A stretch of DNA of 64,000 nucleotides from assembly GCA_019359155.1 (NCBI GenBank), contig JAHHHV010000064.1:124001-188000 (forward strand), in the 5' to 3' direction. The translations under genes and the position numbers were made by a program. Below, in pieces: positions 352 to 13,469 of the stretch. Position 1 is the first letter of the stretch. Each line of letters opens with the position of its first letter. The notes under the pieces were generated by a model that saw only the letters and a list, made by a program, of their open reading frames with translations, did no database searches and had not been told where the DNA came from. Origin of the DNA: Pegethrix bostrychoides GSE-TBD4-15B. Its GTDB lineage: Bacteria > Cyanobacteriota > Cyanobacteriia > Elainellales > Elainellaceae.

Positions 352-3300
352 CTAAGCTTGAGCGTGGCCTGTGAGTTCAATAATTTTCTCCAGATAGAAT
401 TCATCGACTAGCTGAGTCAGCGCCTGAGCCAGGGTTGGATGCTCAGCCGCAATCTGACTAATCAACTGCAAAATCAGCTCCTCATCCGCAATTTGAGCGG
501 CTCGATGCAGTTGACTCAGCCAGTCTGCGGACAGCGTTTTTAGCGTCTGCCATAATTCAGACTCAGCCAGAGCGGGCTGCGGCTCAGCGTCCTCCAATTC
601 AGCTGCGTAACAGTAGCGCACGCCCAGATAGCTAGCCATTTTCTCAAATAGCAGCTCTTCTGAAACAGGTTTTCGCATAAAGTCATCGCAGCCAGTTGCC
701 AAAATAGCCAGCCGCTCTTCTTCAAAGACGCTAGCCGTCAGAGCAATGATCACGGGAGCTGAGTCAGATGCCGCCAGACTGCGGATTTGGCGCGTTGCCT
801 CATAGCCATCCATCACCGGCATCCGGATATCCATCCAGATCAAATGCGGCGACCAGTCCTGCCAGCGCTCAACCGCTTCCTGGCCATTTTGAGCAATTTT
901 GACCGCAAATCCGACAGTTTGCAGCAGCTGAACCAGCAGCTCTCGATTTGCCCAGTTGTCCTCGGCGATTAAGATCCGGTAGGTAGGCTGATTGGGCTGA
1001 AGTCCCACCACCCGCAGGTTTTGGCTCAGGTGCGGCGTAATCTCGCTCACGACTTGCACCGGCAGCGTGAAGCAGAACTGACTGCCTTCTCCCAAGCAGC
1101 TAGACAAGCTGAGTTCGCCGCCCATCAGCTGCACAAATTCGCGGCTAATCGGTAGCCCTAGCCCGGTGCCTTCTTGTGATTTCAGTCCGGTTTCGGTTTG
1201 GACGAATGGTTCAAATAGCAGTGCGAAGTCAGCTTCAGCGATGCCTGCACCTGTGTCGGTCACCGTAAACCAGAGCGTGATACAGGTATCTTGTGAGATT
1301 GGGTCTTGTGAGATTGGGTCTGGGGCAAGTTGGCAGCCAGCCTGAAGCGTCACCTGCCCCGATTCAGTAAATTTGATGGCGTTGCTGAGCAGATTTAGCA
1401 GCACTTGCTTGAGCTTGCTCTCGTCGGTGTAGACAAAGTGGGGCAGATTTTCCGTCTGATCAATCACGAGCCGCAGTCCTTTGGCGCTAGCCTTAAGTTG
1501 GAACATTTCGCCGATGCTCTGGATCAGCCGAGGCAGGTCAAACGCCGTTGGGTTAAGGGCGGCGCGTCCGGCTTCGATTTTTGACATCTCCAGAACAGTA
1601 TTGATGAGATGCAGCAAATGCTCGCCGTTGCGGTTGATGATGCCAAGCTGCTGCTGCTGTTCGCGAGGGAGTGAGCTATCCCTGGCCATGAGCTGGCTGA
1701 AGCCCAAAATGGCGTTGAGTGGCGTTCGGAGTTCGTGACTCATGTTGGCTAAAAACAAACTCTTGGCACGATTGGCGGCTTCGGCGGCTTCTTTGGCCTG
1801 AATCAGTTCGGTGGTACGCTGCTGGACTCGCTGCTCTAGCTGACTGTTGGCCTGCTGAAGCGCAATTTCGGCCTGCTTGCGCTCGCTGATGTCGCGCATG
1901 ATCGTTGAGAAGTAGCGGACGTTATGCTCAGGGTCGGTATGGCGCAAAATCAGCTGCGACATGGGAACTTCTTGACCTTCCGAGTCAAGCAGCGCTGTCT
2001 CGCCTAGCCAGACACCCTGAGCGCTGGCAGTCGGAAGTCCTTGCTGCATGATCAGATCAGCAGCCCACTGGGGGTGAAAGCTAGCAATTTGCAGATCTTG
2101 GTCTTCTACACCTGCGGCCAGATTTCGCAGGCGCTTTACCTGAGCATTGATCCAAAGGACTTGACCCTCAGGGTTGGCGATGCCGATATAGTCAGGAGAA
2201 GCTTCTAAAATTGACAGCAGCCTTGCCTGCTCCTGCTCTAGCTGCTTACGGTCGGTGATGTCTTGAGCAGAGCCAATCAGCTGCGTCACCTGTCCTGCCA
2301 CGTCGCGCTTGAAGATGGTGTTGCGGCTGGAGAACCAGCGCCACTCGCCGTTAGCATGACGCAGGCGATACTCCAGCTCAATTATCTCTCGATCAGATAT
2401 CGATTGAATATGATATTTTTTAGAGATATTTTCCAAATCTTCAGGGTGAATCAATTCTAAGATATTGAATTCCATCTCCTGATTGACTTGATTGCTGTAT
2501 TCAAGTACGCTAAAAATATTACGATTTGTATAGATCAGACGCTGTTCTTGAATGTCATAGATATAGAGAAAATTGGGGATGCTGTCAGCGATGCTCTGGG
2601 TGAATTTCTGGCTGTCTTGCAGCGCTGTTTCTATCTGTCGCCGTTCGGTAATATCAAAGACTGTTCCAACAATCCGATAGATATTGTTCTGTTCATCTCG
2701 AAGTGGATGCAGCGTTGTAAAAAACCATCTTTCAACCTGATCGAAACTGCGGCGCTCTTCGTAGGAGATAGGCGCGCCTTGAACAATACAGCGCTGAAAG
2801 TAGCCCTGAATCTCTGTAATCTGGCTGGAATCAAATATCTCTTCCAGCGTTTTACCGATGATTTTAGCAGCGCTGATTCCGGTCACCCGCTCAGCAGCAG
2901 CGTTCCAACCTGAATAGCACAGCCTGTCTGTCTCGATCAGATCCGCGACAAAAATCGGATGCTGCACGCCGTCATAAATACTCCGCAGAAACTGCTCGCT
3001 CTGCTGGAGGGCTGCCTGAGCAGCCAGCAGATCTTGAGTGCGGACGACGACGCGCTCTTCTAACTCTTGATTGAGCTGATTCAAATTGAGATTGGACAGG
3101 GCTAGAGCTTCTTCTAGCTGCTTGCGTTCGCTAATGTCAAACGCAATACCTTCTAGAAGGCTGAAGGGAGTCGTCGAGACGGGCTGGCCTTTCTCGGAAA
3201 TCCAGCGAATGCTCCCATCTGCATGAATCAAACGATATTCAACTTCGTAGAACTGACGGGCTGCAATCTGTCTGTGAATTTCGGCTGATACAACATCTTT

Positions 3301-6300
3301 GTCATCTGGGTGGACGTGATCTGCCATTGTTCGCAGCTTTGACTCTGCAAAGTCTGAGGCGGGATGGCCAACTAATTCCTTAATGCCATCGCTCAAAAAT
3401 TCGACGAGCCATTTACGATTGCGTGTGCCGCGAAAGACTGCGCCGGGAATATTACTCACCAACGACCGATAGCGCTGTTCACTCATTTGCAGCGCCGCCT
3501 CGACCTGTTTGCGCTCCGTGATCGAGATGGTAGACGTGATGACTTGACGAATCGTGCCGTCAGGCTCAATCACAGGAGTCATGCGCGTCAGCCACCAAAC
3601 TTCTTTGCCCTGCATCTGACTGCTTTCCTCAAACTGCACGGATTCGCCAGTCGCAAAGCAATGTCGGTAGCGAGCCTGGTTGGCGGCAATGCTTTCTGGT
3701 GACTGAAATGCTCCAAATTCGCTCAGCGTTTTGCCAATAATCAGGCGGCGCGGAATGCCAAACAGCCGCTCGCAGGCGGAGTTGACATCGACATGCAGAA
3801 AATCACCCTCTGCCGTTGGCTCCACGACCAAGATGATCACCCCAACGCCGTCATAAATAGTTTGCAAGAACGCCTCGCGCTCCTGAAGCTGAAGTTCTAG
3901 CTGCTTGCGCTCGGTAATATCGCTGTTGGTTCCTACCAGGCGAATCGGCTGACCAGAGGCATCTCGAATCGCTTCACCACAGGTCAAAATCCAGCGCAGC
4001 GAGCCGTCTTTATGCAGCATCCGGTGTTCGCAGGCATAGCTGGCAGTTTGGCCGTCTAGGTAAGCCTGAGCCTGCTCCCTGACGGCGGCCTGATCGTCAG
4101 GATGAATGTAGCCAGCCCAGAGGCTGAGATCGTTTGAAATCTCGTCGTCTCGATAGCCGAGGATTTGTTTCAGGTTTGGATCAATAAAGAATTGATTGGT
4201 TTGCAAATTCCAGTCCCAAACCCCTACTTTTGCGGCGCGGGTGGCCAGTCCATAGCGGGATTTGCTCTCTTGTAGCTCGGCCTCCGTGCGCTTTAGCTCG
4301 CTGATGTCAACCAGCACGCCATTCCAGAGAATCACGCCGTCTTCTAGCAGCATGGGCGTGGCGTTGCCTGCAATCCACTTAATCTCGCCTGCGGTCGTTT
4401 GAATTCGATATTCGGCCTGCCACAAACTCAGACTAGCTGCCGAACGCTGTACTGACTCAGAGACAGCTGCTAAATCTTCAGGGAGAATCAGATCCCACAT
4501 CGACTGGGTGCTACGCTGGACTTGATCTGGGGTCAGCCCGCAGAGTGCCTCAATCCCGCGACTGATCATCGGGAACCAGTCTCGGTCAGCCGCCGCACAA
4601 TATTGGTAGACCATGCCTGGAACGTTGTCGGTGATGTGGCGCAGCTGCAGCTCGCTGGCTTGTAGGGCTTCGGTTGTTAGCTTGCGCTCGGTGATATCTT
4701 GCCCCATGCCCTGGATTTCTAGCAGGTTTTGGTTGGCATCGTAGATTGCTCGATCCGTCCACTGCTGCCAGCGCTGTGAGCCGTCGGGCATGGTCACCCG
4801 ATAGTCGCGCGTAATCACGTCTCGCTCAGGGCTAAGCTCGGCAATCACAGCCTGGATATTCTCCCAGGTTCCTGGCTCAACCAGTGACTGAAAATTCTGG
4901 CCAATGATGGCTTGCCGAGTCCAGCCAAAGTAATGGCAGTAGGCATCATTCACAAATGTCAGTGTGCCGTCGGGCAGAAACCGACAGAGCAGATTGGTCT
5001 GCTGCTCAACGATTTCCCAGTAGCGCAGCTCGCTCGCCCGCAGCGCTAGCTCCGTTTGCTTTTGCTGAGTGATATCGACGACGGCTCCCAGCATTTCGAC
5101 AAGATTGCCTGCATTATCGTAGAGACCTCTACCGCCCGCTGAAAGCCAGTGTAGACTGCCGTCTGGCCAAATTACCCGATATTCGGCGCGGTAGTCTGCT
5201 CCGGTTGCCATTGCATGGTGCAGGGCTTGCTCCACCCGCTCCAAATCGTCAGGATGAATTCGCTCTCGCCAGACCTCGTGGGGAATAGATGTGGTAGGCG
5301 GCAGTCCTAGCAGGCGTGCCCCGCTCTCGCTACAGCTACCGGGCTGACCGGGAACCGAGCGCCAGGTGGCAATATCTGTCCAGTCGAGCGCTAGCCGCAT
5401 TTGCAGTTCGCTAGCTATCACCTTGGCCTCTAGCCGCTGGCGCTCGGTCACGTCGCGGCCTTCTGCCAAAATCTGAAACACCTGACCTGCTGCATCCAAC
5501 AGCGGCTTACAGGAGGCATCCAACAGCAGCAGTTCGCCCGTCTGGCCGCGTATCTGAATTTCAAACCGCCGCAGCTCACCGTTCGCCGCCTGCGCGATCT
5601 CAGCCTGGAGCTTGGCCTGAGCCTGGGGCAGATCTCTCAGCCAGGGCGCTTCCCAAACTAGACAGTTCAGCACCGCCTCCAGCTCGGTTCCCGCAAGGCT
5701 GAGCGCAGTTTGGTTCGCATTGACAATTCGCCCTGCGGGCGTGAACAGCCCCATGAATTGCTCGGAGGCATCAAAAATATTGCGAAAGCGGGTTTCTGAT
5801 GCAGAGAGAGCCGTTTCCACCGTTTCCCTGGCTGTGATCAGGCGCTCTAGGTTGGCATATCGGGCTTGCTGTCGCTGCTCCTGCTGCTGTCGAGCTAGCG
5901 CGATTGCCGCCTGCTGTGCCAAAAACTGGATGGCCAAAACTGCTTCGGGGTTGTTAGAGTGCGGCTCTAGATACAGCAGCCCCAGCAGCTTGTTTTGGTG
6001 CAGCAGCGGCAGGCAAAGCGCGGCAGCAGGCTGATAGGTTTGGAAGTAAGGATCCTCTGCCCAGAAGGGATGCTGGGCGGGATGCTGGGTGCTCAGCTCA
6101 GTTTGGGTTTGAGTCACCTGATGTAGCCAGCTCAGTGGCAGCATCGGACGAGTCGGCGCGCCTGCTTCAGCTTCCACCGTCCAGTCTGCGTCCTGTCTGG
6201 ATGCAAAAGCCGCATAGCTCGCCTCGCTGGAAATTGACGCAAGCAGACAAGTCAAGATATCCTGACGCTGGCCAGCCTCGGCGATAGTTTGGGCGGCTGT

Positions 6301-6324
6301 TGTGAGGCTGGCGAGATTGGACAT
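352..6324 (-). CDS. Ten-PAS hybrid sensor histidine kinase
   Basis: A 1990-residue cytosolic hybrid kinase with no membrane segment. In order: GAF-like domain (about 10-148), ten PAS/PAC repeats (about 176-1480), most closed by the usual DITERK-type linker, a coiled coil, HisKA with phospho-acceptor His1530 in MSHELRTPLN, HATPase with N-box LLSNAIKFT and G-boxes DTGAGI and GTGLGL, then a receiver domain with Asp1832 in WMDIRMPVMDG and the KP lysine. All kinase and receiver residues look intact. The last 100 residues form a helical tail that could be a degenerate Hpt but shows no clear phospho-His motif. Signals sensed are unknown; the PAS array suggests several inputs or a long signalling spacer. 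It is divergent from the REC-kinase at 6635. Residues encoded by 1289-1318 and 6067-6090 are in-frame short duplications (DPISQ twice, HPAQ/HP). Confidence 0.93.
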   Translation of the reverse strand: MSNLASLTTAAQTIAEAGQRQDILTCLLASISSEASYAAFASRQDADWTVEAEAGAPTRPMLPLSWLHQVTQTQTELSTQHPAQHPFWAEDPYFQTYQPAAALCLPLLHQNKLLGLLYLEPHSNNPEAVLAIQFLAQQAAIALARQQQEQRQQARYANLERLITARETVETALSASETRFRNIFDASEQFMGLFTPAGRIVNANQTALSLAGTELEAVLNCLVWEAPWLRDLPQAQAKLQAEIAQAANGELRRFEIQIRGQTGELLLLDASCKPLLDAAGQVFQILAEGRDVTERQRLEAKVIASELQMRLALDWTDIATWRSVPGQPGSCSESGARLLGLPPTTSIPHEVWRERIHPDDLERVEQALHHAMATGADYRAEYRVIWPDGSLHWLSAGGRGLYDNAGNLVEMLGAVVDITQQKQTELALRASELRYWEIVEQQTNLLCRFLPDGTLTFVNDAYCHYFGWTRQAIIGQNFQSLVEPGTWENIQAVIAELSPERDVITRDYRVTMPDGSQRWQQWTDRAIYDANQNLLEIQGMGQDITERKLTTEALQASELQLRHITDNVPGMVYQYCAAADRDWFPMISRGIEALCGLTPDQVQRSTQSMWDLILPEDLAAVSESVQRSAASLSLWQAEYRIQTTAGEIKWIAGNATPMLLEDGVILWNGVLVDISELKRTEAELQESKSRYGLATRAAKVGVWDWNLQTNQFFIDPNLKQILGYRDDEISNDLSLWAGYIHPDDQAAVREQAQAYLDGQTASYACEHRMLHKDGSLRWILTCGEAIRDASGQPIRLVGTNSDITERKQLELQLQEREAFLQTIYDGVGVIILVVEPTAEGDFLHVDVNSACERLFGIPRRLIIGKTLSEFGAFQSPESIAANQARYRHCFATGESVQFEESSQMQGKEVWWLTRMTPVIEPDGTIRQVITSTISITERKQVEAALQMSEQRYRSLVSNIPGAVFRGTRNRKWLVEFLSDGIKELVGHPASDFAESKLRTMADHVHPDDKDVVSAEIHRQIAARQFYEVEYRLIHADGSIRWISEKGQPVSTTPFSLLEGIAFDISERKQLEEALALSNLNLNQLNQELEERVVVRTQDLLAAQAALQQSEQFLRSIYDGVQHPIFVADLIETDRLCYSGWNAAAERVTGISAAKIIGKTLEEIFDSSQITEIQGYFQRCIVQGAPISYEERRSFDQVERWFFTTLHPLRDEQNNIYRIVGTVFDITERRQIETALQDSQKFTQSIADSIPNFLYIYDIQEQRLIYTNRNIFSVLEYSNQVNQEMEFNILELIHPEDLENISKKYHIQSISDREIIELEYRLRHANGEWRWFSSRNTIFKRDVAGQVTQLIGSAQDITDRKQLEQEQARLLSILEASPDYIGIANPEGQVLWINAQVKRLRNLAAGVEDQDLQIASFHPQWAADLIMQQGLPTASAQGVWLGETALLDSEGQEVPMSQLILRHTDPEHNVRYFSTIMRDISERKQAEIALQQANSQLEQRVQQRTTELIQAKEAAEAANRAKSLFLANMSHELRTPLNAILGFSQLMARDSSLPREQQQQLGIINRNGEHLLHLINTVLEMSKIEAGRAALNPTAFDLPRLIQSIGEMFQLKASAKGLRLVIDQTENLPHFVYTDESKLKQVLLNLLSNAIKFTESGQVTLQAGCQLAPDPISQDPISQDTCITLWFTVTDTGAGIAEADFALLFEPFVQTETGLKSQEGTGLGLPISREFVQLMGGELSLSSCLGEGSQFCFTLPVQVVSEITPHLSQNLRVVGLQPNQPTYRILIAEDNWANRELLVQLLQTVGFAVKIAQNGQEAVERWQDWSPHLIWMDIRMPVMDGYEATRQIRSLAASDSAPVIIALTASVFEEERLAILATGCDDFMRKPVSEELLFEKMASYLGVRYCYAAELEDAEPQPALAESELWQTLKTLSADWLSQLHRAAQIADEELILQLISQIAAEHPTLAQALTQLVDEFYLEKIIELTGHAQA
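6067..6090. repeat. 12-bp in-frame tandem duplication in the hybrid kinase
   Basis: GGGATGCTGGGC is followed by the same unit with one change. The unit is a multiple of three and adds four residues near residue 80 of the kinase. Confidence 0.75.
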
Positions 6325-6634
6325 AATCTAGCTTCTAGCAGGTGGAAATAATTCAGGCGATGATCCAAATGGCTGAGAAACAGCTGAGTCAAAGCGTTCT
6401 GTAAAGGCTCAGTCAATTCAATGTCAATATCAATTCAATAAAGGGTAGCCTGCCTCGCCAGTCTAAAATTTCCCAGATCGCGCTAGTGAATCAACCTGCT
6501 ATCAGGCCACCATCAGGCTACTATCAGGTCACCATCAGGCCATTCAACTCAACTATCAGCGGTACAGCTCTATCCGTGGCGTGATCTGAAGCGTCAATCT
6601 ACCGAGTTATTTTTATTTATAGCAGTGCAAGTTT
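6325..6634. other. Divergent intergenic region with four 11-bp spaced direct repeats
   Basis: This spacer separates two divergent sensor kinases. ATCAGG begins at 6501, 6512, 6523 and 6534, exactly 11 bp apart, each with a similar five-base tail. One-helical-turn spacing would place the copies on the same DNA face, as in cooperative binding sites, but slippage duplication is an equally simple origin. No convincing sigma-70 promoter was recognised. Confidence 0.6.
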
Positions 6635-6647
6635 ATGGCAGTGCAAG
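6616..6647 (+). repeat. 16-bp duplication that carries the start codon
   Basis: TTTATAGCAGTGCAAG is followed directly by TTTATGGCAGTGCAAG. The single A-to-G difference turns ATA of the first copy into the ATG start (6635) of the REC-kinase in the second. Confidence 0.8.
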
Positions 6648-7906
6648 CAAGTATTTTAGCTGTAGATGATAAGCCCGACAATCTGCGGCTGCTGGCCAAG
6701 ATCTTGATGGGCGAAGCTTACAAGGTGCGGAAGGTGACGACAGGCAGGCAGGCGCTTGAGGCAGCCCGCCTGAACCCGCCTGACCTGATTTTGCTCGATA
6801 TCATGATGCCAGAGCTAGATGGCTACCAGATTTGCCAAGCCCTGAAGCAGCAGCCCGAAACCTGCGATATTCCGATTATTTTCTTGAGTGCTCTCGACAA
6901 CCAGACCGATAAAGTCAGAGCCTTCACTGTCGGCGGCGTAGACTACATTACTAAGCCATTTCAGCAGCAGGAGGTGCTGGCGCGCGTCAAAACGCACTTG
7001 CAGATTCAGCAGCTCACGCAGTCGCTGCGGCTGCAGAACTCGCGGCTCCAAGCTGAAGTGCAGCAGCGGCAGCAAACCGCGGCAGAGCTAACCGCGACGC
7101 TGCAAGAACTGCGTGACACGCAGGCGCAAATCATCGCCAAAGAAAAGCTGGCCTCGCTGGGGGGGCTAATGGCAGGCATTGCCCACGAGCTGCGGAATCC
7201 GCTTAACTTTGTCAATAACTATGCCGAGAGTTCTGCCGAGCTTATTGACGATCTGCTCAGCGAAATCCGCAGCGTTAGCCCAACAGATATCAGCCTCGCC
7301 GAACTGCAAGCCCAGCTCACCGAGATTCGTGAGAATGCGCTGTCGATCCATCAGCATGGCCAGCGCGCCGAGCGGATTATCACCAGCATGATGCAGCATG
7401 CCCGCAACCGCTCAGATGACCGTCAGCTGGTCGATCTCAATCAGCTAATGGAGGAATCCTTTAAGCTGGCCTATCACAGCCGCCGCTCCAATTTGCCTAA
7501 CTTCAAGGTAACGCTAGAGACAGACTACGACCCCAGCATGGGCGAACTAGAGCTGTCAACCGATCTGCATCGGGCTTTCATCAACCTGATTGATAACGCC
7601 TGCTACGCGCTCTACAAAAAGCAGCAGCAGCATTCGGCTTTCGTGCCAACGCTCCGGATCGCAACCCGCCGACTGCCGAGCCAGGTCGAAATTCGGATTC
7701 GCGATAATGGCATTGGCATAGCGCCAGAGATACAGGCGCAGGTGTTCGATCCGTTTTTTACCACCAAAGCCAACGAGGGCAGCGGATTGGGGCTTTCAAT
7801 CACCCACGATATTGTAGTGGGCCAACATCGTGGCAGCCTCAGCCTAGTTTCAGAACTCGATGATTACACGGAATTCACGCTGCTGCTACCGACTGCATTT
7901 CCATAG
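6635..7906 (+). CDS. Receiver domain-histidine kinase fusion
   Basis: A 423-residue soluble protein. It has an N-terminal receiver domain (1-125; LILLDIMMPELDGY with the phospho-Asp, KPF lysine), a Gln-rich coiled coil (about 125-175), HisKA with GIAHELRNPLNF, and HATPase (about 295-420) with NLIDNACYAL, DNGIGI, FDPFFTTK and GSGLGLSI. This REC-HK layout is common in cyanobacteria and acts as an intermediate in phosphorelays, taking phosphate or a signal at the receiver and controlling its own kinase. It is divergent from the ten-PAS kinase, a plausible partner by position. The start codon is within a 16-bp duplication; no strong ribosome binding site is visible. Confidence 0.93.
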   Translation: MAVQASILAVDDKPDNLRLLAKILMGEAYKVRKVTTGRQALEAARLNPPDLILLDIMMPELDGYQICQALKQQPETCDIPIIFLSALDNQTDKVRAFTVGGVDYITKPFQQQEVLARVKTHLQIQQLTQSLRLQNSRLQAEVQQRQQTAAELTATLQELRDTQAQIIAKEKLASLGGLMAGIAHELRNPLNFVNNYAESSAELIDDLLSEIRSVSPTDISLAELQAQLTEIRENALSIHQHGQRAERIITSMMQHARNRSDDRQLVDLNQLMEESFKLAYHSRRSNLPNFKVTLETDYDPSMGELELSTDLHRAFINLIDNACYALYKKQQQHSAFVPTLRIATRRLPSQVEIRIRDNGIGIAPEIQAQVFDPFFTTKANEGSGLGLSITHDIVVGQHRGSLSLVSELDDYTEFTLLLPTAFP

Positions 7907-8234
7907 TTTCCCCCATGCCTGTACCGCGACTTAGAGCGTAAATAATGGAGTGCCTCACAAGGATACAGTCTCTAGTGCAGTCTCTTAGTGCAAGCTCCAA
8001 CTCGCTTCTTTAATTTAGCATCCGCACGAACAGCGGCAGGCTCAAGACTGAACGTCACCGGAATCATTATCTAGAGCGTTACCTCAACCCTCACTTAACC
8101 CCTCATTCAAACCCCCAGCGAAGACTCGCACTACCTGCAAATGCCGATTTGGCCAGTCCTAGCCGGTCAAGTCCGGCGCTTTGCTGTGCCTGAGTCAGCC
8201 TCGGTTGCTTAATGTTTCGTCAAGAGTTCCTGAT
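7907..8234. other. Intergenic, nothing recognised
   Basis: No gene, RNA, terminator or clear promoter seen. An upstream in-frame ATG at 8181 would extend the next protein by 18 residues that do not resemble the receiver family. Confidence 0.5.
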
Positions 8235-9968
8235 ATGACAGCCAAAATTCTGGTCGTAGATGATGAAATCGATCTACAGCGTTTGATTCTACAGCGGTTT
8301 CGCAGACAGATTAAAGCCAAAGAATTTGACTTTGTATTTGCCACAGACGGTCTCGAAGCCATCGATCGACTGCAAGCCGACTCAGCCGAAATCGACATGA
8401 TCCTGACGGATCTGTATATGCCAACCATGGACGGGCTGACGCTGCTCACCCGGCTCGCCGAAATTGATCAGGGACTCAAAGCTGTCGTGATCTCAGCCTA
8501 TGGCGATATCCCGAACATTCGGCGGGCAATGAACTGGGGAGCGTTTGACTTTCTCACCAAGCCGATCGACTTTCGCGATCTCGAAATTACGATTGCCAAA
8601 ACCCTGGAGTCGGTGCAGCAGGTGCGGCAAAAGCAGGCGCAAATTGAGCAGGTGCAGGCGCAGCTCTTACATGCCGCCTACCACGATGCCCTGACTGACT
8701 TACCCAACCGCAGCTGGTTTACCCGCCGCCTCACTGAGCTCATCGAGCAGCAGGCCGAAACCTACGCGGTGCTGTTTATCGATCTCGATCGCTTCAAGCT
8801 GATTAACGATAGTCTGGGACATCTGGCGGGTGATCAGCTCTTGCGCAGGGTGGCTGAGCGGCTGCAAGCTTGCCTAGATCTACCTGATCGGGTGGTGCGG
8901 CTGGGCGGGGACGAGTTTGCGATTTTGCTGGAAACTGCCGGAATTCACCAGGCGACTGCGGTGGCTAATCAGATTAAAGCGCAGCTGGCTCAGCCGTTTC
9001 AGCTTGATGAGGGCGAAGTCTACTCCGAGGCTAGCATTGGCATCACGCTGGGCAGCAGCAGCTATGAGCGCCCAGAAGAGCTGCTGCATGACGCAGATAT
9101 TGCCATGTACTGCGCCAAGGCGCAGGGCAAAAACCGCTTTGAGGTGTTCAATCCGATGATGCAGGCGGAGGCCAAAGCCTTTTTGCAGCTCGAAACTGAC
9201 CTGAGACATGCCCTAGAGCGCCATCAGCTCAGCTTGCACTATCAGCCCATTTTGACGGCGGCTGGAGTGCTGCATGGCTTTGAGACGCTGGTGCGCTGGC
9301 AGCATCCGACGCAGGGGTTGATCGCGCCCGATCGGTTCATTCCGCTGGCTGAAGAGACGCGCCTGGTCGTGCCGCTGGGCTGGTGGGTGTTTGCAACCGC
9401 CTGTCAGCAGCTCAGCCAGTGGCAGCAGCTGACCCCTGCTGGCGCAGCGCTAAAGCTGAACATTAATTTCTCGGCAATTCAGCTGCGGCAGGCTGATTTG
9501 GTCGAGCGGGTGAGCGCAACGCTGGCGGCAACTGGCGTGAGCGGCGAGCAGCTGAAGCTAGAGATCACCGAGAGCTATTTGCTCGAAAACACCGACGCGC
9601 AGATGCAGTCGCTGCACCGACTCAAGGCGCTGGGGATTCAGCTCTGCATTGATGACTTTGGGACGGGCTACTCGTCGCTGGGGCGGCTGCATGAGTTCCC
9701 CATTGACGTACTCAAAATTGACCGTTCGTTTATCCGGCGTGCTGACCTGGACTCAGGAGCGCATTTGGAAACGGTGAACATGATTGTGGTGCTGGCGCAT
9801 AGCCTGGGGATGGATGTTGTGGCTGAGGGGGTCGAAACGCTGGAGCAGCTGCGAATGCTGCAAGCCCTCAACTGTGACTTCATGCAGGGCTATCTGTTTT
9901 CGCGTCCCGTAGACAGTCAGCAGGCGACTCGATTTTTGGAGGCTGGCTATCGGTTTGATTTGGTTTGA
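8235..9968 (+). CDS. Response regulator with GGDEF and EAL domains
   Basis: A 577-residue protein: receiver domain (1-125, ILTDLYMPTMDG), coiled-coil linker, GGDEF domain (about 160-310, motif RLGGDEF at about residue 224) and EAL domain (about 330-575). The cyclase motif is intact, but the inhibitory I-site RxxD upstream of GGDEF reads DLPD, so product inhibition is probably absent. The EAL domain keeps the residues of active phosphodiesterases: ETLVRW, NINFS, EITES, IDDFGTGYSSL, LKID and AEGVET. It therefore may make or degrade cyclic-di-GMP under control of a phosphorelay, probably with the two neighbouring kinases. The start at MTAKILVVDD fits the receiver fold. The stop codon lies in a short repeated TTTGATT tract. 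Confidence 0.93.
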   Translation: MTAKILVVDDEIDLQRLILQRFRRQIKAKEFDFVFATDGLEAIDRLQADSAEIDMILTDLYMPTMDGLTLLTRLAEIDQGLKAVVISAYGDIPNIRRAMNWGAFDFLTKPIDFRDLEITIAKTLESVQQVRQKQAQIEQVQAQLLHAAYHDALTDLPNRSWFTRRLTELIEQQAETYAVLFIDLDRFKLINDSLGHLAGDQLLRRVAERLQACLDLPDRVVRLGGDEFAILLETAGIHQATAVANQIKAQLAQPFQLDEGEVYSEASIGITLGSSSYERPEELLHDADIAMYCAKAQGKNRFEVFNPMMQAEAKAFLQLETDLRHALERHQLSLHYQPILTAAGVLHGFETLVRWQHPTQGLIAPDRFIPLAEETRLVVPLGWWVFATACQQLSQWQQLTPAGAALKLNINFSAIQLRQADLVERVSATLAATGVSGEQLKLEITESYLLENTDAQMQSLHRLKALGIQLCIDDFGTGYSSLGRLHEFPIDVLKIDRSFIRRADLDSGAHLETVNMIVVLAHSLGMDVVAEGVETLEQLRMLQALNCDFMQGYLFSRPVDSQQATRFLEAGYRFDLV

Positions 9969-10133: not shown

Positions 10134-10161
10134 TTGAATTTTGGAAAACGCTATATATAAT
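10134..10161 (+). promoter_or_regulatory. Probable sigma-70 promoter
   Basis: TTGAAT, 16 bases, then a perfect TATAAT, about 80 bp before the deacetylase-like gene at 10239. Confidence 0.5.
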
Positions 10162-10238: not shown

Positions 10239-11777
10239 ATGGCTCATTCAAACGCGCTTTATCAGCCCTCTCTGTTGGAACTGGCTCAGGACGGCAACTG
10301 TCTTGCTCTGAGCTACTGGATGAACAGTCTGCTCAACTCCCAAGGCATCCAGATCCAGGTGCAGCCTGCCCCCGATCGGTTTTTCAAAATTTTGATCAAT
10401 TTTCGCCGCCCACGCCGCCGCGATGCCTGCCTCAACCTACGCGAGCGCCTGACGCGATTTATCTGCTATCGCCTCTGGACGCTGAACTCTGACGCGATTC
10501 AGGGCGTGCGGCTGGTGGCGCGGATCGCTGGCGACTCGAAAGTGCTATGGCAGACCTCTGTGCGAATCAACTCGCCTGCGGCGGTTCAGCAGCAGGCCCA
10601 GCAGCAAGCTCAGCGACGACAACGTTCTCGACTGCGGCAGCAGCAAACGGCGCATCAGCTGCGGTTTCAGATTTTTCGGTCGCTGTTCATGAGCAGCATT
10701 ACCCTAGCTGGCTTTTGGATTGGCTACTGGCTGTTTTATGTCGAGCTAGGACGGCTGTTGGCCAGCGGAGCGTCCGATACAGCAGCAGTCACCCAGAGCC
10801 TGAGCGGGGCAGAACTGCCGGGTGGGGGCGTGATTCGGATGCCGCTGCCGCCCAACCAGACTGACTTTACGGTTCCCAAGCAGGCTGCCGGGACGGTGAT
10901 TTCGCAGGCTGACTTGTCTAACGGCGAGAAGCTGATTGCCCTGACGTTTGATAATGGCCCGGATCCAGAGATCACGCCGCAGATTCTCGATGTTTTGCAG
11001 CAGTACAACGTGCGGGCGACATTTTTTATGTCGGGAATCAATGTCGATCAGCAGCCTGATCTGGCGCGCCGCGTGGTGGCTGAAGGCCATGCCATCGGCA
11101 ATCGAGGCTGGAACTGGCTGAGCGAGGCTGATCTAAATGTTGACCTAGAGCATGAAGTAGACGATACGGCCAAGCTAATCCAGGAAACCACCGGAGCCAA
11201 AACCGATCTGTTTCGCCCTTCAACCGGCCAGATCAGCAGTCCGTTGGTCGCCTATGCCAAGCGCCAAGATAATGCCGTGATCCTCTGGTCGATTGACTCC
11301 CAGGATCCGCTGGTGGCTGCGCCGATTCTGCTCGACAACGTGCTGCGAAACGCTCAGCCCGGTCGGATTGTGCTGCTGCATGATGGCCCAAGCGGCGCAG
11401 GTTCGGCCACCGTGCAGGCTTTGCCGCAGATGATTACCGCGCTGCAAAACCAGGGCTATCGGTTTGTGACGGTTCCAAAGCTGCTCCAGTATCAGCATCC
11501 GCTGCCGGAAGCTTCGCCAGAGCCAGCAGATCCAGATGCCAAAGATCCAGATACTCGCTCGAAGTCGAGTCCAGAAGTTAATCCGGGAGCCAGCCCAGAA
11601 GCTAATCCAAACCCAAATCTGAAGCCAACTGAACCTGCTGGAGAAAAGCCCAATAGCCCGGAAGTCAAGCCGCTTCAGCCCAAGCTAGAGAAGGTCAGCA
11701 ACCCTGAGCGCAGTCCTGAGCGAGAACTCCCGACTCGCAAGCGAGCCGTAGCGCTGGCAGCAGAATCTGAGCTTTAG
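10239..11777 (+). CDS. Membrane-anchored polysaccharide deacetylase-like protein, probably inactive
   Basis: 512 residues. The N-terminal 130 residues form a cytosolic domain I do not recognise, beginning MAHSNALYQP. A membrane segment follows at about 149-170, then a NodB-type carbohydrate esterase fold (about 230-430), and a Pro/Glu-rich tail. Active members bind a metal through the second Asp of TFDDG and two His of HxxxH. Here these read TFDNG (Asn239) and NRGWNW (Arg289, Trp293), so all three ligands are replaced. The base Asp238 and the LLHDG motif remain. I infer a binding or structural role, perhaps in the envelope, rather than deacetylation. A GAGG ribosome binding site lies five bases before the ATG. 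Confidence 0.85.
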   Translation: MAHSNALYQPSLLELAQDGNCLALSYWMNSLLNSQGIQIQVQPAPDRFFKILINFRRPRRRDACLNLRERLTRFICYRLWTLNSDAIQGVRLVARIAGDSKVLWQTSVRINSPAAVQQQAQQQAQRRQRSRLRQQQTAHQLRFQIFRSLFMSSITLAGFWIGYWLFYVELGRLLASGASDTAAVTQSLSGAELPGGGVIRMPLPPNQTDFTVPKQAAGTVISQADLSNGEKLIALTFDNGPDPEITPQILDVLQQYNVRATFFMSGINVDQQPDLARRVVAEGHAIGNRGWNWLSEADLNVDLEHEVDDTAKLIQETTGAKTDLFRPSTGQISSPLVAYAKRQDNAVILWSIDSQDPLVAAPILLDNVLRNAQPGRIVLLHDGPSGAGSATVQALPQMITALQNQGYRFVTVPKLLQYQHPLPEASPEPADPDAKDPDTRSKSSPEVNPGASPEANPNPNLKPTEPAGEKPNSPEVKPLQPKLEKVSNPERSPERELPTRKRAVALAAESEL

Positions 11778-11780
11778 TCT

Positions 11781-11872
11781 ACGCCGCTTCCTAGCACAAA
11801 TAAACCAACCATCGTGACGCTATTCCACGCCGCTTCCTAGCACAAATAAACCAACCATCGTGACGCTATTCC
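11781..11872. repeat. 46-bp perfect tandem duplication at the end of the CPBP gene
   Basis: Two identical 46-bp copies, 11781-11826 and 11827-11872. Copy two encodes the last residues of the CPBP protein. Because 46 is not a multiple of three, copy one is read out of frame and supplies the TAG stop at 11820-11822. Confidence 0.95.
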
Positions 11873-13469
11873 AGAGGCTATGCAGCAGCATTGAGGCCAG
11901 CAGTCCGCGTGAACGGCTGTAGACAAAGCCCAGCATCACTCCCAGCGTCGCCAGCGGCAGCACCTCCGAGAAGCTGAGATGCGCCAGGGCGAAAATCAGG
12001 CCGCTGACCAGAATTGCCCCCCAAACTGGCAGATAGCGCGTCAGTGACGGCAGCAGAAAGCCGCGAAACAGAATCTCTTCAAACACAGGGGCAGCCACGG
12101 CTGCCGTCAAGAAGAAAATCAGCAGCGCCACCGGATCGCCTTCTTCGAGGACAATTTGCAGCAGCGGATTGCTGCCGCCCTGCCCCTGCCAGAACTGCTG
12201 ATTCAGCAGCGAGACGGCAAACATTAAAGGCAGTGCCGCAAAATAGCCGCCCAGCCCCCAGAGCAGCCAGCGCTTGCCCGTGAGTCGAAACCAGCCTTCG
12301 GGCAAAGGCTGATAGGGCTTGACGGCGCGATAGAGCACAAACAGCCCCGTGCCCGCCATTAGCAGATAGTAAACCAGCGTGTAGAGCGCCTTGCTCTGTC
12401 CTGCCGCCCCTGCTAGAGAGATACTGATGCCGCCCTGCGCCAGCAACCGACTCCCGACAGCCAGCAGCCCCGGAATCGCAATCTGGCCGACAAACAAAAA
12501 GCCGACCATGAGCACCCAGGCAATCGTCTCCCAGTTCCAGGGAACCGTCCAGCCAACCAGCGGGCTAGACTCACCGCGCCGCAGCCGCCAAGTCAGCCAG
12601 CCAATCAGCAGCCCAACGCCCAGAACTGCGCCCAGTGCCGGGACCGTACTCACCAGCGCCAGCTTCACCAGCGTTGAACGAGCGGTGATCTGCTCTTGAG
12701 CTTGCAGGTCGGCCAGGGCATCGGTGCGCTGCTGAAGCTGGTAGAGCCGCGCCAGACTCACATATTTGAACCAGCCTTGCAGGGTTTGAAGCTGGGCTTC
12801 GGTGTCTGGCAAAATCTGGGAGGGTTCGCGCCAGAGGTTTGAGAGCACTGCAGCGAGCGAGCGAGTTTCAGCGGTAGCCTCGGCGATTGCTGGCGGACTG
12901 TCGCGTCCAGATGCCTGAACCTGCTGCCAGGTTGACTGCGCGGTTGAGAGCTGGTTTTGCTGAGCTTGCAGTAAGCCAATCCGCAGATCGAGCTGGTTGA
13001 GCAACACCTGCTGCTTTTGAAAATTGCTAGCGCTGGCGCTGGTGGCGTTGCTTTTAGCAGTGCTGGTGCTGGACTTTTCTGGGGCAGCTGGCAGGCCGTC
13101 TGAAGGGTCTAGAGCACTGGGCGGATTAGGTGCAGTAAGCGCATCAGCTTGCTCAACCTGCTTCTGAAATTTTTGCAGATTCGTCTGCGCTGTTTTTCGC
13201 ACCTCTTGATACTGTTCAACTGCCGTTTTGAGCGGGTCGTCTCCCACAATTGCCTTGCGAGCTGCCAGCAGGTTGTTGGAGTCGCTGTCGCCAGGGTCGC
13301 CGGAGTCGGCAGCCAGCTCACTGACATGCAGCAGCAGATCGGTTTGGTAGAGCTGAAGCCTGTCGGTGATCTGCGGCTCAGTCAGGCTCGACCAGAGCGA
13401 CAGCGTCACCAGCGGAATCACAATCAGGGTAATGGCGATCAAAAACAGGCGCTTGAGTGAGGCGGTCAT
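11820..13469 (-). CDS. CPBP family intramembrane metalloprotease
   Basis: A 549-residue membrane protein starting MTASLKRLFLIAIT with a first membrane helix. A long soluble, Gln-rich coiled-coil region follows, then about seven membrane helices. Signature motifs of the CAAX-protease/bacteriocin-processing family are present: EEILFRGFLLP (EExxxR), FALAHLSF (FxxxH) and LLHSLWN (HxxxN), so the protease centre looks intact. The substrate is unknown. A longer frame reaches 13682, but it overlaps the divergent phosphatase gene and lacks a membrane signal, so I use 13469. The C-terminus was reshaped by a 46-bp duplication. Confidence 0.88.
   Translation of the reverse strand: MTASLKRLFLIAITLIVIPLVTLSLWSSLTEPQITDRLQLYQTDLLLHVSELAADSGDPGDSDSNNLLAARKAIVGDDPLKTAVEQYQEVRKTAQTNLQKFQKQVEQADALTAPNPPSALDPSDGLPAAPEKSSTSTAKSNATSASASNFQKQQVLLNQLDLRIGLLQAQQNQLSTAQSTWQQVQASGRDSPPAIAEATAETRSLAAVLSNLWREPSQILPDTEAQLQTLQGWFKYVSLARLYQLQQRTDALADLQAQEQITARSTLVKLALVSTVPALGAVLGVGLLIGWLTWRLRRGESSPLVGWTVPWNWETIAWVLMVGFLFVGQIAIPGLLAVGSRLLAQGGISISLAGAAGQSKALYTLVYYLLMAGTGLFVLYRAVKPYQPLPEGWFRLTGKRWLLWGLGGYFAALPLMFAVSLLNQQFWQGQGGSNPLLQIVLEEGDPVALLIFFLTAAVAAPVFEEILFRGFLLPSLTRYLPVWGAILVSGLIFALAHLSFSEVLPLATLGVMLGFVYSRSRGLLASMLLHSLWNSVTMVGLFVLGSGVE

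Follow-up and report, generated by a model that had tools for sequence, protein, structure and literature searches.

What becomes of a polysaccharide deacetylase fold when the ligands of its metal have been replaced and the gene is kept? The question is raised by an open reading frame of the cyanobacterium Pegethrix bostrychoides GSE-TBD4-15B, located in a 64,000-nucleotide stretch of DNA that was analysed as a whole (the window). An earlier note, made from the letters alone, had described its product as a deacetylase-fold protein that had lost all three metal ligands and carried an unrecognised N-terminal domain, and had proposed a signalling or binding pseudoenzyme. Taken as a whole, the best explanation, which we offer tentatively, is a demetallated, membrane-anchored descendant of a CE4 enzyme that is kept as a binding or sensing ectodomain.

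Architecture and metal site of the protein

The features of the gene, in window coordinates, are listed below.

10134..10161, + strand: promoter-like hexamers TTGAAT-16-TATAAT upstream of the ORF (consensus match only; 2 found vs. 0.8 expected)
10239..11777, + strand: whole ORF, 512 aa, ATG start, with N-domain, membrane helix, NodB/CE4 domain, and low-complexity tail
10239..10574, + strand: N-domain, about residues 1–112, an unannotated cyanobacterial module predicted as helix-helix-strand-strand-helix-strand-strand (family search, models)
10575..10679, + strand: basic, Gln-rich helix running into the membrane segment, residues 113–147 (model, charge count)
10680..10751, + strand: membrane helix, about residues 148–171 (hydropathy, model)
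10890..11495, + strand: NodB/CE4 domain, residues 218–419, presumably periplasmic (PF01522; fold match to Bc1960 4l1g)
10944..10958, + strand: motif 1 TFDNG, residues 236–240, with base D238 retained and N239 in place of the metal Asp
11100..11117, + strand: motif 2 NRGWNW, residues 288–293, metal His positions occupied by R289 and W293
11373..11387, + strand: motif 5 LLHDG, residues 379–383, kept, subsequent loop altered
11496..11774, + strand: low-complexity Pro/Glu/Ser-rich tail, residues 420–512 (pLDDT under 50 at 439–512)

The sole Pfam match in the 512-aa protein at E 0.1 is Polysacc_deac_1 (PF01522) at residues 228–343 (E 1.2e-28, 100 bits, cut-off 23.1), leaving the domain ahead of the membrane helix without a Pfam match at this threshold, as the description "unrecognised" had implied. 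In an AlphaFold2 model of the whole protein (25 sequences, mean pLDDT 70.6), a compact N-domain is followed by a long helix (residues 113–175), within which the membrane segment lies, and by a NodB barrel; confidence is low in the tail. In a Foldseek comparison with the PDB, the modelled barrel matched the PgdA-type deacetylase 4l1g (E 1.9e-16) and BA3943 of Bacillus (7bkf, E 5.4e-14), which is termed a pseudoenzyme in PDB titles. The 30 residues before the membrane helix contain seven K/R and no D/E, compared to one K/R and three D/E after it, and this charge distribution suggests that the N-domain is on the cytosolic side.

Alignment with PgdA-type enzymes of known structure (5o6y, 4l1g, and 2c1g) confirmed the reading of TFDDG as TFDNG and of HxxxH as NRGWNW: without gaps in the motifs, N239 aligns with the second Asp of TFDDG, and R289 and W293 with both His of HxxxH, so that the entire metal triad is replaced (D239N, H289R, and H293W), as the family alignment also has it. 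The claim that fold, base Asp, and LLHDG persist held as well, given the PF01522 match, D238, and residues 379–383; the family alignment further has MT3 R326, MT4 W350 and D353, and MT5 H381-D382 in place. Relocated metal ligands were considered and rejected, since the gapless motif alignments and the few remaining His appear to yield no alternative triad in the sequence: residues 218–424 contain four His (284, 305, 381, and 420) and no Cys, and H381 is the motif-5 His and H284 is also present in relatives.

CE4 deacetylation is established as metal-dependent for the family in the available parts of PMC6115787 and PMC10967932. As all ligands are gone, metal-dependent CE4 deacetylation is very unlikely in the window protein, and canonical CE4 catalysis has in all probability been lost. 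Annotation as an active polysaccharide deacetylase is unwarranted. The scores for the equivalogs PgdA (NF045820, 131.5 bits vs. a cut-off of 800) and PdaB (TIGR02764, 153.7 vs. 237.4) and for the YlxY family (TIGR02873, 95.6 vs. 391.5) stay below their cut-offs, and of the CE4/Polysacc_deac_1 hallmarks the protein has the homology, the MT1 base Asp, MT3 Arg, MT4 Asp, and MT5 His, and lacks the Asp-His-His triad. Its best sequence and fold matches, the PgdA-type peptidoglycan GlcNAc deacetylases of CE4 (Bc1960 4l1g/5o6y, SpPgdA 2c1g), share its NodB fold, base Asp, MT3 Arg, MT4, and MT5; the window protein differs from them in its replaced metal ligands and in the presumably cytosolic N-domain ahead of a membrane helix.

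The Trp in motif 2 raises the possibility of a metal-independent enzyme, with another hydrolysis chemistry housed in the same barrel as in the PuuE allantoinase (3CL6). PuuE has the same fold, its second metal His is also a Trp, and the accessible part of PMC10967932 describes it as not metal-dependent; the base Asp, Arg, and His-Asp that remain in the window protein could likewise serve such a chemistry. However, PuuE lacks both motif-1 Asp, so that its signature (both MT1 Asp absent, Trp at the second MT2 His) is matched by W293 and contradicted by the retained D238, and it differs in motif 1, substrate, and family; against the PuuE model TIGR03212 the window protein scores 15.9 bits, with a cut-off of 424.6. 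Nor is a shared new chemistry apparent within the genus, whose three remaining species have Arg or His where the window protein and its G013 orthologue have Trp, and we regard this alternative as improbable.

CE4 pseudoenzymes as such are already known. BA0150 (4m1b), BA3943 (7bkf), and 2VYO of E. cuniculi also combine a NodB fold with the loss of residues of motif 1 and/or 2; PMC10967932, as far as its text was available, terms BA0150 a pseudoenzyme, and the available portions of PMC10967932 and PMC6115787 consider 2VYO probably inactive. They are other proteins of other organisms, for which the accessible source text describes no such N-domain, and the window case is unlike them in that intermediate steps of loss are visible within one genus. 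What is new here are the architecture, the lineage, and the preserved intermediates. Among the matches listed, the open-licence literature on cyanobacterial polysaccharide deacetylases, CE4 pseudoenzymes, PgdA residue numbering, PGA_cap/metallophosphatases in cyanobacteria, and inactive NodB sensors contained no paper on the window protein.

Relatives and the course of ligand loss

Among 36 genomes of the order, 12 contain full-length relatives, namely each of the five from the window's genus and a further seven, and a search of 388 genomes of the class, which reported matches to E 1e-20, added at least eight, all in another family (f16). The tree was built from 48 NodB domains with the five key motif columns left out, admitting matches over 140 bits that span residues 245–380 and identical domains once. 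The short CE4 proteins L018–L035, the loci L037–L060, the other NodB genes of G000 (L002–L005), the frame-broken L101, and the weak L117 were dropped, and L099 (G303), a copy split over two frames, entered by its NodB part alone.

The five genus orthologues form one clade (support 94/87), which adjoins an intact-triad outgroup from another genus (G023; joint node 100/99). At the Asp, first His, and second His, the window protein and its G013 orthologue have N, R, W, the G010 and G011 orthologues D, R, R, and the G012 orthologue D, R, H together with a base Asp changed to Glu. The first His is thus lost in all five (to Arg), the second in four (W, W, R, R), and the Asp in two (to Asn); the base Asp is kept in four of the five, and the MT3 Arg, MT4 Trp/Asp, and MT5 His-Asp are kept across the genus. 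By our recount, all 43 tree rows outside the genus clade have D, H, H, including separate paralogues in G010 and G012 (L079 and L080) and L015, which has a Glu in place of the base Asp. The simplest account is a single loss of the first His in the ancestor of the genus, with the other ligands following later; the inner node of the clade (support 83/38) leaves the order of these later losses unfixed. Each of the CE4 pseudoenzymes met in the literature or among PDB titles is an isolated case; here one genus shows successive metal-site loss at a single locus, for which intact outgroups and paralogues within the genomes serve as controls.

A pseudogene or sequencing error was rejected as the source of the replacements, as all five genus ORFs are open through NodB and the second assembly, G013 (same locus as L036; 68–72% identical), has the same three. 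This shared set, and the three base changes required to turn a His codon into TGG, exclude a one-base sequencing slip. Orthologues outside the genus combine the N-domain with an intact triad.

A convergent Rce1-like gene adjoins the orthologue not just in the window but in G010 and G012 of the genus and in G023, the outgroup with an intact triad (three of the ten flanks that are long enough), which supports positional orthology of eroded and intact copies. In G010, the next three genes match those of the window as well, and the upstream GGDEF/EAL gene recurs in G013, where the flank of L087 is too short for the Rce1-like check and shows this upstream gene alone. With the Rce1-like neighbour present in only 3 of 10 flanks of comparable length, a conserved operon was rejected.

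Several further observations concern these loci and related NodB genes. A perfect 46-bp tandem duplication (11781–11873) directly follows the gene in the window and overlaps the 3' end of the Rce1-like ORF (end at 11820). Upstream, positions 352–9968 hold a run of signalling genes, including a receiver-kinase, a receiver-GGDEF-EAL protein, and a 1990-aa ORF whose translation resembles a multi-PAS hybrid kinase. Two further f16 N-domain/NodB copies, L069/L099 (G303) and L101 (G312), are split over several frames with the triad intact, reflecting either decay or assembly error. A broken HxxxH in the short CE4 protein L002 was rejected as an alignment artefact, as L002 reads HGYEH. Finally, the 24 NodB loci L037–L060 from alpha-proteobacteria and other bacteria have [TS]FDNG (metal Asp to Asn) with mostly intact HxxxH, in a set selected by a search pattern that itself contained FDNG.

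Constraint on the ectodomain and its possible role

In the proposed scenario, the protein derives from a PgdA-like deacetylase of the CE4 type that already had this architecture and still had all three metal ligands. The metal site would then have been dismantled in steps within the window's genus, so that canonical metal-dependent deacetylation should be gone. The product would span the membrane once, placing the N-domain in the cytosol and the NodB-fold ectodomain in the periplasm, and the gene may have been retained for an ectodomain that still folds and binds to an envelope glycan or a partner. With a conserved N-domain working on the cytosolic side, the protein would act as a wall-cytosol tether or sensor and not as an enzyme. 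BA0330 and BA0331 of Bacillus anthracis offer a comparison for such a role, being membrane-anchored NodB proteins that bind peptidoglycan without detected deacetylase activity according to the available part of PMC4505593; unlike the window protein, they are lipoproteins with Fn3 domains, and BA0330, of the NodB2 class, keeps its Zn ligands. The "signalling or binding" of the earlier note is plausible, and we consider a binding or sensing role a serious candidate, at a confidence that falls a little short of probable.

The main rival is relaxed decay, in which the deacetylase became useless in the genus and NodB is drifting to loss, with the N-domain and the membrane part still required. The same positions carry different replacements in different species (R/W, R/R, R/H), a variability more in keeping with relaxed selection than with a newly conserved site; two of the genomes have the separate intact-triad paralogues L079 and L080, and the frame-broken f16 copies outside the genus (G312/L101 and G303/L069) suggest that the gene can be lost. 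On the other hand, besides the five open ORFs, NodB identity among the genus orthologues amounts to 63%–82% (5 of 10 pairs measured), and for the closest pair, window/G013, it is near that of the neighbour gene (82% vs. 84%).

Rates of change bear on both readings. Pairwise NG86 estimates of dN/dS were attempted for eight NodB pairs, two of which (L009–L012 of the genus and L067–L066) gave no value due to saturated dS, and among the five genomes of the genus sample one pair is close enough for a sound estimate. For this pair, window/G013, dN/dS is 0.148 for NodB (bootstrap 0.085–0.226) and 0.091 for the N-domain (0.047–0.158); the loosest genus pair with a value, window–L009, has a NodB dN/dS of 0.111 at dS 2.4. 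NodB values of 0.031–0.053 were obtained for four intact-triad pairs, with bootstrap intervals of 0.012–0.054 and 0.022–0.079 for two of them. The window/G013 value is three to five times that of the intact pairs, as expected under relaxed decay, but at about 0.15 it still speaks against free drift. Part of the excess is lineage background, because between window and G013 the GGDEF/EAL gene next door also stands at 0.097. The closest genus pair is therefore under purifying selection, with NodB constrained yet looser than in its intact relatives.

Protein trees place the acceleration in the genus NodB ectodomain and not in the N-domain. The mean NodB path to the eight f16 rows is 1.12–1.33 for the genus vs. 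0.81–1.04 for the seven other f1 rows, a lengthening in the genus only that also favours relaxed decay, whereas the N-domain ranges overlap (0.94–1.27 vs. 0.90–1.23, omitting the long-branch row L017 at 2.92). Codon-tree lengths, to which silent changes contribute most, reveal no acceleration (NodB/N-domain 7.28/5.71 in the genus vs. 7.42/4.64 in five intact f1 rows). Against decay, the window protein keeps 63 of the 75 NodB columns that are conserved among full-length relatives with an intact triad (in at least 14 of 15). Apart from the ligands, the 12 changed columns include W242D, P328S, G384P, and D387A in or after motifs 1, 3, and 5; the latter two adjoin a gap in the alignment. The groove thus appears to have been reshaped in addition to losing its metal, and the ancestral glycan may no longer be bound. 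Weighing these points, we consider relaxed decay rather unlikely, although it is the strongest of the rivals.

A further alternative is that the dead copy regulates an active NodB enzyme by pairing or competing with it. The intact-triad paralogues in G010 and G012 could be such partners, as could the four other NodB-fold genes in G000, of which L002 and L003 have intact motifs as read by eye. None of these four is close, the nearest, L002, being about 30% identical to the window protein, and we rate a regulatory partnership slightly below even the improbable metal-independent enzyme.

For the demetallated CE4 descendant, the term pseudoenzyme used in the earlier note is well supported at the level of sequence, given a missing triad, an open and constrained gene, and a stepwise loss limited to one clade of the tree. 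The case would make pseudoenzyme receptors testable in cyanobacteria.

The N-domain as a recurrent module

The N-domain was indeed unrecognised, in that no Pfam family above its cut-off covers it in scans with printed coordinates, but it is not specific to the window protein. A profile built from ten copies has 10 matches in the window's genome, two of them within one ORF, and found the domain in 52 of 194 genomes sampled from the phylum, with copy numbers that are lower bounds since at most 24 candidates were scored per sampled genome. Carriers include L119–L157, the domain sometimes occurs in tandem, and a search of plasmids gave zero matches. We therefore rejected a domain private to the window protein in favour of a recurrent module. 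This exposes a widespread unannotated cyanobacterial domain that may connect the cytosol with envelope proteins.

A separate model of the N-domain (2 sequences, mean pLDDT 76.8) has the order helix-helix-strand-strand-helix(es)-strand-strand. Compared to the PDB, its best Foldseek E is 0.047, with none at 0.001 or better, and its best VIA Z is 7.4 (rmsd 4.1 over 101 residues), a level that common arrangements also reach. A function based on the fold was rejected, since the matches are weak, with sex-pheromone precursors, a type VI baseplate chain, a pilotin, RimP, and RbfA at their head and every Z under 8.

In a scan of 39 ORFs, many of them cut by the locus end, the N-domain partners at E 1e-5 were PGA_cap (17), PrsW (3), and TPR, SHOCT, NodB (the window protein itself), and glycine zipper (one each); one more copy sits on a TPR-GUN4 protein. 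Because the N-domain also occurs on proteins with intact motifs, the architecture alone is no proof of a dead ectodomain.

The PGA_cap partners show a parallel erosion. We take their NNH and GD motifs to be of the metal-binding type, by analogy with calcineurin-like enzymes. We assembled 24 N-domain/PGA_cap proteins (L081, L082, L083, L095, L130, and L158–L176), each of which matches PF09587; they come from 24 genomes among the order's 36, all of one family. In a 35-row alignment, in which L177 is not PGA_cap and went uncounted, the NNH histidine is kept in none of the 24 vs. 7 of 10 other PGA_cap rows, and the GD aspartate in 5 of the 24 vs. 8 of 10. As 3 of the 10 other rows also lack the histidine, NNH erosion is not confined to the family. 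The PrsW partner L097 appears, as read from its sequence, to keep the EExxK motif, which presumably has a metal role. With PGA_cap eroded family-wide, NodB genus-wide, and PrsW L097 intact-looking, dead-looking ectodomains are recurrent and not obligatory behind the N-domain.

These patterns would fit an unnamed transmembrane module whose periplasmic partners, once metal hydrolases, were repeatedly demetallated and kept as sensors (NodB genus-wide, PGA_cap family-wide), a generalisation that we consider distinctly unlikely at present and that, if true, would define a convergent class of pseudoenzyme receptors. The window's genome encodes a second N-domain/PGA_cap protein, L126, in which the motifs are largely intact.
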